Below, piece after piece: positions 22,289 to 24,778 of a DNA stretch of 42,013 nucleotides; the first letter of the stretch is position 1; each line of letters begins with the position of its first letter. Source of the stretch: Halomonadaceae bacterium T82-2. Its GTDB lineage: Bacteria; Pseudomonadota; Gammaproteobacteria; Pseudomonadales; Halomonadaceae. The translations under genes and the position numbers were made by a program. The stretch covers positions 1-42,013 of the forward strand of contig LSBP01000029.1 in the NCBI GenBank assembly GCA_001577635.1. Direction: 5' to 3'. Below the pieces are notes generated by a model. It was not told the origin of the DNA. It saw nothing but the letters and a program-made list of their open reading frames with translations, and did no database searches.

Positions 22289-22600
22289 ATGGACAATCTG
22301 TTTGCCGGGATTCCCGAGCGGCTCGATGACGAGCTGTTCGAGTCGATCATCGAGAACGAGGCCGTGACGGTGGAGCGGATCGTCTCGCGCGGGCAGCGTT
22401 CGCCGGCATGGGGCTGGTACGACCAGGCGCGCGACGAGTGGGTGGTGGTGCTCAAGGGGCGTGCCGTGCTGGCGTTCGAGCGAGGGGAGGAGATGACCCT
22501 GGCACCCGGCGATCATGTGGTCATTCCGGCGCACATGCGCCATCGGGTCGCCTGGACCGATCCCGACGGCCCGACCGTCTGGCTGGCGATCCATTACTGA
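22289..22600 (+). CDS. Cupin-domain protein
   Basis: This is a small single-domain cupin of 103 residues. The barrel is visible from VVLKGRAVLAFERGEEMTLAPGDHVVIPAHMRHRVAWTD. The first cupin motif lacks the usual two histidines, while the second keeps the late histidines (HMRHRV), so metal binding may be weak. The ATG at 22289 is preceded by CGGAGGTG at a good distance; an earlier in-frame ATG at 22241 lacks this. The function is unknown. It lies alone, facing the terminator of the candidate RNA. Confidence 0.8.
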   Translation: MDNLFAGIPERLDDELFESIIENEAVTVERIVSRGQRSPAWGWYDQARDEWVVVLKGRAVLAFERGEEMTLAPGDHVVIPAHMRHRVAWTDPDGPTVWLAIHY

Positions 22601-22673
22601 TGCGGCTTGTCGGGGTGGTAGAGGAAGGGGGAATGATGCACCGGAAGCGGGCGAGAGCAGCGTTCGGGGGCCC

Positions 22674-22710
22674 AAAAGAGAGCACCCAGCCCCTGATGGC
22701 AAGGGCTGGG
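22674..22710 (-). terminator. Intrinsic terminator of the candidate RNA
   Basis: Read on the minus strand, CCCAGCCC (22710-22703) pairs with GGGCTGGG (22692-22685) and TGCTCTCTTTT follows. On the plus strand TCTCTTTTTCTT follows (22720-22731), so the structure can also stop transcripts from the cupin gene. Confidence 0.75.
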
Positions 22711-22878
22711 CGATGACTGTCTCTTTTTCTTGAATATTGTTGTTGTTGGATTTCTTGGAAGCTGGCGTTGTTCTTGCTGATCTTCTCCAGCGGCGCCGCT
22801 TGTCGTGGCGCTTGAATTCGTCGCATGGCGGGTCGTGGACCGGCGGCGACGTAACAGTGAGCTGGCGTGCTCCGCCTC

Positions 22879-22903
22879 GTCCCCCTCGCCGGGGGACTTT
22901 TTT
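22879..22903 (+). terminator. Plus-strand terminator-like hairpin inside the gene-free region
   Basis: GTCCCCC (22879-22885) pairs with GGGGGAC (22891-22897) around TCGCC, and six T follow at once. In sequence it is a very good plus-strand terminator, yet no gene ends just before it; it may stop read-through from the cupin side. On the minus strand it is a hairpin of the candidate RNA preceded by a run of A. Confidence 0.65.
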
Positions 22904-23257
22904 GCATCTTTTGTTGTTCTTGTGTGATGCGTCTTGCCGCCGTGTCTTGTGCTTGCTCTTCGACGGCCTTCGGTTGTTCTTGGTCTTGTTGCCGTTTTAC
23001 CCCGTCACCGTCGATCTGCCTTGTATTTCTTGCCGACGTCCTGCGTCGTTGCGATGGACTCATGATCGATTTTGGCCCCCTCCGAGACAACTCCACTTTG
23101 GTGGCATAGCCGTTCGTCGATCCCGGCAGGGGGCCGGGCAGTACTGCTGCGGCACCGGTTCATTCAGCGACTCATACCTTCGGACTATGTCGCGGCGGGG
23201 CGTCGTGACCAAGACTCAATCGGTGCCACTCATCACAACCCAGTCAGGAGCACAGCC

Positions 23258-24778
23258 ATGATCTACGCCAATCCGGGGAGCGACGGTGCCATCGTCGCGT
23301 TCGAAAAGCGCTACGGCAACTATATCGACGGCGAGTTCGTCGCCCCGCGCAAGGGCCAGTATTTCGACAACATCAGTCCGGTTAACGGTGAGGTATTCTG
23401 CGAGATACCGCGCTCCACCGAGGAAGATATCGAGCTGGCGCTGGATGCCGCGCACCGGGCGGCACCCGCCTGGGGGCGGACCTCGGCCGCCGAGCGCAGC
23501 AACATCCTGCTGAAGATCGCCGATCGTATCGAGCAGAATCTGGAGATGCTGGCCGTCGCCGAGACCTGGGACAACGGCAAGGCGGTGCGCGAGACCCTGA
23601 ACGCCGATCTGCCGCTGGCGGTGGATCACTTCCGCTACTTCGCCGGCTGCATCCGCGCCCAGGAGGGCACGGCCGCCGATATCGATGCCAACACCGTCGC
23701 CTACCACTTCCACGAGCCGCTGGGCGTGGTGGGGCAGATCATCCCCTGGAACTTCCCGATCCTGATGGCCACCTGGAAGCTCGCGCCGGCGCTGGCGGCG
23801 GGCAACTGCGTGGTGCTCAAGCCCGCCGAGCAGACCCCGGCGTCGATCCTCAAGGTCATGGAGCTGATCGGCGACCTGCTGCCGCCGGGGGTGGTCAACA
23901 TCGTCAACGGCTACGGCGAGGAAGTTGGTCAGGCGCTGGCGACCAGCAAGCGCATCGCCAAGATCGCCTTCACCGGCTCGACCCCGGTGGGCTCGCACAT
24001 TCTCAAGTGTGCCGCCGACAACATCATCCCCTCCACCGTGGAGCTGGGCGGCAAGTCGCCGAACATCTACTTCGCCGACATCATGAACGCGGAGCCCGAG
24101 TTCATCGACAAGGCCGTCGAAGGGCTGGTGCTGGCCTTCCTCAATCAGGGCGAGGTCTGCACCTGCCCGTCGCGGGCGCTGATCCAGGAATCGATGTACG
24201 ACACCTTCATGGCCAAGGTGATCGAGCGTACCCAGGCGATCAAGCGTGGCAACCCGCTGGACACCGACGTTCAGGTCGGCGCCCAGGCCAGTCAGGAGCA
24301 GTACGACAAGATCATGTCGTACATGGAGGTGGCCCGCGAAGAGGGCGCCGAGTTCCTCACCGGCGGCGGCAAGGAGAGCTTCGATCCGGCCTACGACAAG
24401 GGCTTCTACATCCAGCCGACCCTGCTCAAGGGACGCAACAGCATGCGTGTGTTCCAGGAAGAGATCTTCGGTCCGGTGGTGGGCGTCACCACCTTCAAGG
24501 ACGAGGCCGAGGCACTGGATATCGCCAACGATACCGAGTTCGGGCTCGGCGCCGGCGTCTGGACGCGGGATATGAACGTGGCCTTCCGCATGGGTCGCGG
24601 CATCCAGGCCGGGCGCGTATGGACCAACTGCTATCACCAGTACCCGGCGCATGCCGCCTTCGGGGGCTACAAGAAGTCGGGCATCGGCCGCGAAACCCAC
24701 AAGATGGCCCTGGAGCACTACCAGCAAACCAAGAACCTGCTGGTCAGCTACGATACCAATCCGCTGGGCTTCTTCTGA
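23258..24778 (+). CDS. exaC: Aldehyde dehydrogenase (ExaC/AldB-like)
   Basis: This NAD(P)-dependent enzyme of 506 residues oxidises aldehydes, probably acetaldehyde, to acids in the cytoplasm. Visible motifs are [21 protein letters not shown]-type cofactor binding (FTGSTPVG), the general base Glu262 in VELGGKSPN, and the catalytic Cys301 in [16 protein letters not shown]. The second cysteine two places on is typical of the ExaC/AldB group, which serves ethanol oxidation in Pseudomonas. CAGGAG lies 7 bases before the ATG; a longer reading from 23072 lacks a ribosome site. A candidate regulatory RNA is read away from it upstream. No alcohol dehydrogenase lies nearby, so the source of its aldehyde is not shown. 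Confidence 0.93.

Follow-up and report, generated by a model that had tools for sequence, protein, structure and literature searches.

The 657 bp ORF-free gap that separates the end of a cupin-like ORF (nt 22600) from the ATG of an aldehyde dehydrogenase gene (nt 23258) in the window (the whole 42,013-nt stretch of DNA that was analysed) is read here as the site of a sense/antisense regulatory pair, composed of a putative NtrC/sigma54-dependent nitrogen sRNA on the plus strand and a putative antisense or sponge RNA on the minus strand, a reading to which we assign a probability of a little under 0.6. The locus bears conserved promoters, covarying structure and terminators, and the plus-strand element exists in two types of copy, one free-standing, as in the window, the other located behind the ammonium transporter gene amtB.

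Plus-strand element: conservation, structure and promoter

The following plus-strand features were recognised in and beside the gap:

22637-22653, plus: possible NtrC-type site TGCACC-N5-CGGGCG, with one good half-site; weak (9/12, reached by 21% of shuffles)
22763-22778, plus: putative sigma54 -24/-12 promoter TGGCGTTGTTCTTGCT (GG-N10-GC), 9/12 to the assumed consensus
22788-22903, plus: proposed sRNA of about 115 nt, 5' end placed from the promoter; marked by promoter, covarying hairpin, invariant segment and terminator
22819-22851, plus: 5' hairpin (CGTCGC ... GCGACG) preceding the invariant segment, from the centroid fold; the equivalent helix covaries in relatives
22857-22873, plus: invariant 17-nt segment GTGAGCTGGCGTGCTCC, presumed pairing region, the same in 42/42 free-standing sequences, these having been gathered by a 15-nt core that lies within it
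22879-22903, plus: intrinsic terminator of the sRNA, stem 22879-22897 followed by T6, from terminator scan and alignment
23258-24778, plus: acetaldehyde dehydrogenase ExaC, the adjoining gene (NCBIfam 966.7 bits, cut-off 900)

A DNA search with nt 22674-23100 matched 42 of 117 genomes, 23 of the 42 with two matches, and nearly all of the matches listed spanned only nt 22856-22903, which on the plus strand correspond to GTGAGCTGGCGTGCTCC with a GC hairpin and T6 after it. In its exact form, the 15-nt core was found in 155 of 201 genomes of the family (two copies in 62, one in 93), against 2 of 201 for the reversed control pattern, and in 9 of 293 genomes of the order, all nine being among the 12 own-family genomes sampled. 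When named genomes were scanned, at least 118 stretches with the core were retrieved, the carriers being Halomonas, Vreelandella, Chromohalobacter, Billgrantia, Salinicola, Modicisalibacter and their kin, and a T5 run was present within 50 nt of the core in 73 of the 80 stretches listed. The seven lacking it came from Pseudonocardiales, Rhodoferax, Arthrobacter, Saccharopolyspora, a Pseudomonas, a Marinobacter and one Vreelandella; the Vreelandella locus is interrupted by a contig edge, while the other six look like chance matches, as is likely also for a match in Candidatus Binatia that does have a T5 run.

Seventy-one distinct loci were collected, 28 of them behind amtB and 43 free-standing with varied neighbours, leaving out L001 and L051 (the window itself) and any locus repeating an already included 120-nt stretch; the free-standing set was reduced to 42 by removal of L002, identical to the window. 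Wherever both flanks were visible, the amtB-type copy was located between amtB and a glnK gene. The genome under study also has a copy of this type, on contig C27, where the transporter scores above cut-off as an ammonium transporter of the marine subtype, and a sigma54-type sequence, TGGCACATCCTTCGCC, was read by eye upstream of its glnK-amtB cluster.

Taking the 5' hairpin and the terminator stem together, 7 of 12 pairs were changed on both sides among the 42 free-standing copies (33 cells; in the alignment, the row of the window does not line up with its hairpin arms), a value reached by none of 500 shuffles, with slid partners giving 3-5 pairs and 5-13 cells; in the 5' hairpin helix 4 of 6 pairs were so changed. 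The strand was read from the cells holding G-U versus A-C, the latter being would-be G-U pairs of the opposite strand, and the count was 63 versus 11 (helix 1, 45 versus 11, or 17 versus 11 with the outer pair excluded; helix 2, that of the terminator, 18 versus 0). The T-run also lies at the plus side of the element. Folding energy did not support the plus strand. For the terminator stem, the minus version was the stabler one in 36 of 42 free-standing loci and in 22 of 28 loci at amtB; for the 5' hairpin, the plus version was stabler in 28 of 42 of the former and the minus version in 23 of 28 of the latter. The fold of the window's plus RNA was not unusual for its composition (z -1.2). The invariant segment is predicted to be mostly open in the centroid fold and largely paired in the minimum-energy fold of this RNA. 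The best-conserved part of the region belongs to the plus strand, and the putative RNA encoded there had been overlooked in the initial annotation. Three terminator-like plus-strand sites also appeared in the terminator scan. Two Rfam matches were rejected, namely isrD (22.4 bits, cut-off 37), sitting on the plus terminator, and RAGATH-25 (15.4 bits, cut-off 49).

Promoter and activator sites were scored on a 12-point scale against what we take to be the sigma54 and NtrC (TGCACC-N5-GGTGCA) consensus sequences, retaining the highest-scoring site within a fixed stretch, wherever it lay, and comparing it with mononucleotide shuffles. The mean sigma54 score was 9.55 in the 42 free-standing loci versus 6.06 in shuffles, and no excess was found in the 28 amtB loci (6.57 versus 7.17). 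In a named set, overlapping the first in some genomes, a score of at least 9 was attained by 44 of 50 free-standing versus 4 of 23 amtB loci. The window's own match is weak when taken alone, being reached by 11% of shuffles, and it is through the relatives that a sigma54 promoter for the sRNA is indicated. For the NtrC-type site the means were 9.29 versus 7.85 in free-standing and 8.54 versus 8.05 in amtB loci, with better sites about 235 to 260 nt 5' of the seed in a number of relatives, which makes NtrC-type sites suggestive in relatives, although weak in the window.

It could be argued that the element does no more than terminate transcription, its leader being conserved and the whole being widespread, and that no separate RNA exists; at amtB it occupies the place expected for a terminator. 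On the other hand, a terminator has no need of 17 invariant nucleotides, and most free-standing copies have a sigma54-type promoter of their own; we regard this explanation as highly improbable. Under the sense/antisense reading, a sRNA of about 115 nt would be made from the sigma54 promoter, with NtrC as the most likely activator when nitrogen is scarce, and the working part of this sRNA would be present twice, free-standing here and at the 3' end behind amtB. The invariant segment between hairpin and terminator would be the part that base-pairs with target mRNAs, and Hfq would probably assist. Traits of Hfq-dependent trans-acting sRNAs are present: an intrinsic terminator with U-tail comes after the conserved segment, and the genome has hfq.

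Search of the own genome for seed-complementary sites (up to 3 mismatches) retrieved 144 and 135 sites versus 83 and 77 for reversed controls, an excess, but with sites too numerous to interpret, and singled out no target. As for exaC as a possible target, its ribosome binding site in the window, GGAGCACaGCC, is complementary to the seed, with the exact GGAGCAC found in only 5 of 30 orthologues; an intact seed close to ExaC was found, among the 30 ExaC loci L051-L080, only in the window's own and in L052.

As a separate observation, several leaders of these ExaC orthologues are AAC-rich just 5' of the ribosome binding site (e.g., ACAACAAGAACAGGAG in L060) and resemble Hfq-Crc target sites.

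Minus-strand promoter, ends and A-rich motifs

On the minus strand the features are as follows, the A-rich motifs coming from a motif scan:

22674-23056, minus: proposed antisense RNA of about 380 nt (383), 5' end placed from the promoter
22683-22712, minus: terminator hairpin of the minus RNA (13 pairs, 9 of them G-C)
22737-22747, minus: A-rich motif AACAACAACAA, 3' arm; its equivalent in L003 is AACAAAAACAA
22768-22775, minus: A-rich motif AAGAACAA, exact complement of the sigma54 promoter spacer TTGTTCTT
22911-22921, minus: A-rich motif AAGAACAACAA, 5' arm
22974-22981, minus: A-rich motif AAGAACAA, 5' arm
23062-23067, minus: putative -10 GATCAT, 17 nt from the -35 (23085-23090)
23086-23104, minus: E1 element CCACCAAAGTGGAGTTGTC, also written CCACCAAAGTGGAGTTGTCT in the window, holding most of the -35

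In this gap the initial annotation had described a gene-free stretch of about 650 bases with A-rich motifs on the minus strand, ending in an intrinsic terminator and read away from an aldehyde dehydrogenase, and all of these points were confirmed. With both strands of the 42 kb window scanned, the minus strand of the gap holds seven of the eight AAnAAnAA matches, inside 258 bp (22724-22731, 22737-22744, 22740-22747, 22768-22775, 22911-22918, 22914-22921 and 22974-22981), whereas 100 dinucleotide shuffles of the whole window gave a mean of 0.92 and a maximum of 4. The terminator stem (22712-22683) is followed by CTCTCTTTTG, and the neighbour left behind is ExaC.

E1 is located behind the sRNA terminator, on the strand opposite to the sRNA. 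Among the 42 free-standing loci it was complete (16/16) in 12 and scored 13-15 in 11 more, with the 28 amtB loci at 11 or below, these scores not being independent, because the consensus was drawn from some of the scored loci. After four of those 11 were dropped as misplaced (L024, L036, L038 and L088 (13/16)), the 19 E1 loci span six genera. An A2/T6 hexamer was found 17 nt after TTGYnn in 11 of 13 representatives, chosen by the author, and in 16 of all 19, with the other spacings from 10 to 25 reaching at most 3 (at most 5 in the full set). In the named set, E1 scored at least 14/16 in 12 of 50 free-standing loci; as it is absent from many loci, the antisense partner would not be universal. 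E1 and its equivalents also hold an imperfect dyad (CCAC-CAAA-GTGG, CAAC-GAAA-GTTG, CGAC-CAAG-GTCG) which, beside the -35, looks like the site of a regulator.

Identity to L003, the nearest diverged relative, alternates along the region. The higher values belong to E1 and -35 (95%), the block from -10 to +50 (88%), the core (86%), the sRNA hairpin (79%), the sigma54 site (83%) and the minus terminator hairpin (87%), the lower ones to the flanks (47% upstream of E1, 55% beyond the terminator hairpin), the promoter spacer (41%), the 5' A-rich arm (51%), the stretch between sRNA hairpin and sigma54 site (50%) and the 3' A-rich arm (66%). Such a profile is that of a promoter and an RNA with defined ends, and not of conserved A-motifs. 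The minus strand is probably transcribed: about 380 nt of it are bracketed by a promoter that recurs in several genera, together with a conserved 5' end, and by a terminator. The comparative evidence (E1, -10 spacing, segment identities) speaks for an RNA of about the size and ends initially proposed. The predicted fold of the 383-nt RNA has a z of -6.5, part of which must derive from the sRNA hairpins read in reverse.

The minus-strand motifs might instead be mirror images of T-rich signals on the plus strand, namely the sigma54 promoter, the T-rich region before it and the tails of terminators; only the plus sRNA would then be real, and E1 would be a DNA site with another role. This is possible, if doubtful. 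One motif does coincide with the sigma54 spacer, the matches at 22724-22747 are the complement of a T-rich plus stretch immediately 5' of the sigma54 promoter, and in the 42 free-standing loci 46 antisense motifs lie outside the T-tract versus 6.9 expected and 13 sense, many of them in the T-rich stretch near the -24. Such mirroring, however, does not account for the association of E1 with a -10 at a fixed 17-nt spacing across a variable spacer, nor for the conserved 5' end, and it leaves unexplained the three window matches (22911-22921, 22974-22981) that lie beyond the sRNA terminator.

The motifs could also mean that the minus RNA is a second decoy of the CrcZ/CrcY type, titrating Hfq-Crc. 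In favour of such a role, seven motif matches fall within about 380 nt, and 39 of 46 motif positions are unpaired in the predicted fold versus 51% of all positions, several AAnAAnAA thus lying in predicted loops; Hfq and Crc are in the genome, and second copies (CrcY, CrcX) exist in Pseudomonas according to passages of a 2022 review (PMC8871633). Nevertheless, the Rfam CrcZ search (RF01675) proposed in the initial annotation gave only 9.9 bits (E 2.9) against a cut-off of 95 for the minus RNA, with a model that also misses the pcnB-linked RNA of this genome described below and that has no own-family genome above cut-off. No exact CbrB subsite (TGTTAC/GTAACA, taken from a passage of PMC6296734) was found at 23067-23330 on the minus strand, and the best sigma54 match at 23040-23260 on that strand was 7/12, reached by 69% of shuffles; the signal upstream of the minus RNA is of the -35/-10 type, the sigma54 promoter being on the opposite strand. 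The motif arms are poorly conserved against L003, and the exact AAnAAnAA matches vary among relatives, numbering seven in the window, three in L003 and five to six in L011, L012 and L033. Only short matches (best 19 nt, E 0.002) link the minus RNA to the genome's own CrcZ-like RNA, a far better candidate for the role. By the Rfam score, the missing CbrB and sigma54 signals and the divergence of the A-rich arms, CrcZ was ruled out as first choice at 22674-23035, and a second decoy there seems to us rather unlikely.

We return to the sense/antisense pair. In this reading the minus RNA, of about 380 nt and with a -35/-10 promoter of its own, would cover the whole sRNA in complementary form, also the segment that the amtB copy has in common with it. 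It has A-rich arms, predicted to be single-stranded, and would most likely serve as an antisense or sponge that keeps the sRNA silent as long as nitrogen is in sufficient supply; the A-rich stretches may hold Hfq. A bolder version, which we consider quite unlikely, would have the minus RNA two-handed, sponging the NtrC-driven sRNA and its amtB twin by perfect complementarity while binding Hfq-Crc through the A-rich arms, hence coupling the NtrC and CbrAB-CrcZ-Crc circuits in Halomonadaceae.

CrcZ-like RNA at the pcnB locus

The claim that a CrcZ-like RNA exists outside Pseudomonas held for this genome, but at pcnB and not at the locus for which it had been made. On contig C35 (L173) the order is gluQ, cbrA (50% identity), cbrB (63%), a gap and pcnB, the names cbrA and cbrB being given by identity to two ORFs that precede an Rfam-level CrcZ in the Pseudomonas-like L127. 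L127 has gluQ, the two ORFs taken for cbrA and cbrB, and then CrcZ; in G092, CrcZ adjoins pcnB. GluQRS and PcnB score above NCBIfam cut-offs, the CbrA and CbrB ORFs have only kinase and NtrC-class matches below cut-off, and no CbrA or CbrB model is among the NCBIfam matches. The gap contains an RNA gene with a sigma54 promoter, TGGCATGCACGGTGCA, followed by 13 AAnAAnAA matches and a terminator, about 490 nt by these marks (G000 contig C35, L173:392-8220 and L132:731-1249, a locus outside Pseudomonadaceae). CrcZ of Pseudomonas has about five A-motifs, fewer than the C35 RNA. The genome also encodes Hfq and Crc (its closest match among solved structures being 4JG3, a catabolite repression control protein, at E 1.3e-77), so that crc, hfq and cbrAB, whose presence the initial annotation had wished to see checked, were all found.

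Relatives have the same arrangement. In all 30 pcnB loci examined, the best of 73 genomes searched, a sigma54 promoter (9-11 of 12) was followed by 9-18 A-motif matches, overlapping ones counted. Exact CbrB subsites numbered 24 and 23 in all versus 2.9 expected, and in 23 of the 30 loci, own genome included, TGTTAC, near -125, was accompanied by GTAACA, near -80 from the -24. The pair was present wherever cbrA/cbrB were adjacent (23/23; cbrB was found directly in 12 of these, only cbrA being established at the place in the other 11) and was absent where both were missing (7/7), these seven being the loci in which gluQ adjoins the RNA and no cbrA/cbrB occurs in the 6 kb upstream. A CbrA-like protein was detected in 23 of 29 genomes (14 of 19 within the family, 9 of 10 outside).

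Of 244 genomes of the order, 11 had a match at or above the Rfam CrcZ cut-off; they belong to two families and none to the family under study, where one weak match was found (22.3 bits). The model had no match in the own genome at E 0.001. Because the cut-off of 95 is not reached, the pcnB-linked RNA is CrcZ-like by position, promoter and motifs only. On this sequence evidence, the CrcZ-type carbon-control RNA of the genome appears to be the one at the pcnB locus of contig C35.

Some variants of the locus were observed. The genomes of L130, L131, L133, L136, L138, L140 and L149, with L333-L339, are without cbrA and cbrB at the locus and lack the CbrB pair, the CrcZ-like RNA and its sigma54 promoter being kept. 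In L329, L330, L331, L332, L341, L342, L343 and L346 cbrB is beside gluQ with no cbrA found there; CbrB would therefore need another kinase. Only a C-terminal piece of cbrA is present in L347. In G048, the only own-family genome with any Rfam CrcZ match, L129:4100-4800 carries a CrcZ-like RNA with about 15 AAnAAnAA matches, and nothing matching cbrAB occurs within the 9 kb stretch.

Significance and comparison with known systems

If the proposed reading is true, a nitrogen sRNA is widespread in Halomonadaceae and comes in two forms, as a gene of its own and as the end of the ammonium-transporter mRNA, and in several genera it is faced by an antisense partner. Excerpts of two papers (PMC12164125, PMC13101641) present Halomonas relatives as hosts for industrial use whose bioplastic production is affected by the supply of nitrogen. 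Among titles and abstract openings of the literature on CrcZ, CbrA, Crc, Hfq, small RNAs and amtB in Halomonas, Halomonadaceae and Marinobacter, no recognisable description of these RNAs was found. As for carbon control, passages of the 2022 review (PMC8871633) describe the cbrA-cbrB-crcZ organisation only in Pseudomonas and Azotobacter and call the system unique to Pseudomonadaceae, against which stands the gluQ-cbrA-cbrB-CrcZ-pcnB locus, with crc and hfq, of this genome. Lineages that have naturally lost both cbrAB and the CbrB pair but kept the CrcZ-like RNA offer a ready test of the role of CrcZ without CbrAB.

With CrcZ, CrcY and CrcX of Pseudomonas and Azotobacter (RF01675), the minus RNA shares a similar length (398 positions in the Rfam model), predicted looped AAnAAnAA repeats, a structured core, a terminator and a genome encoding Hfq and Crc. 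It differs from them in not being beside cbrB, in having no CbrB or sigma54 site on its strand, in scoring far below the Rfam cut-off and in its weakly conserved arms.

For the plus sRNA, the closest parallels concern nitrogen control. GlnZ of Enterobacteriaceae, in excerpts of PMC9731577, is a sRNA released from the glnA 3'UTR, with a conserved seed and a Rho-independent terminator, and is induced by NtrC. Compared by description only, both would be sRNAs from the 3' end of a nitrogen-control gene with conserved seed and terminator, but here the host mRNA is that of amtB and there is in addition a free-standing copy with its own sigma54-type promoter and a putative antisense partner. NrsZ is a free-standing sRNA of Pseudomonas with a sigma54 promoter and under NtrC control, which the sRNA described here resembles, again by description, in being free-standing, in its sigma54 promoter and in its presumed NtrC control; we know of no amtB copy or antisense partner for NrsZ.

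Cis-antisense RNAs and sRNA sponges form a general class in which full complementarity to a small RNA is obtained by transcription from the opposite strand. The minus RNA would fit this class, with the difference that the shared 17 nt might let it reach the amtB-derived copy in trans as well.
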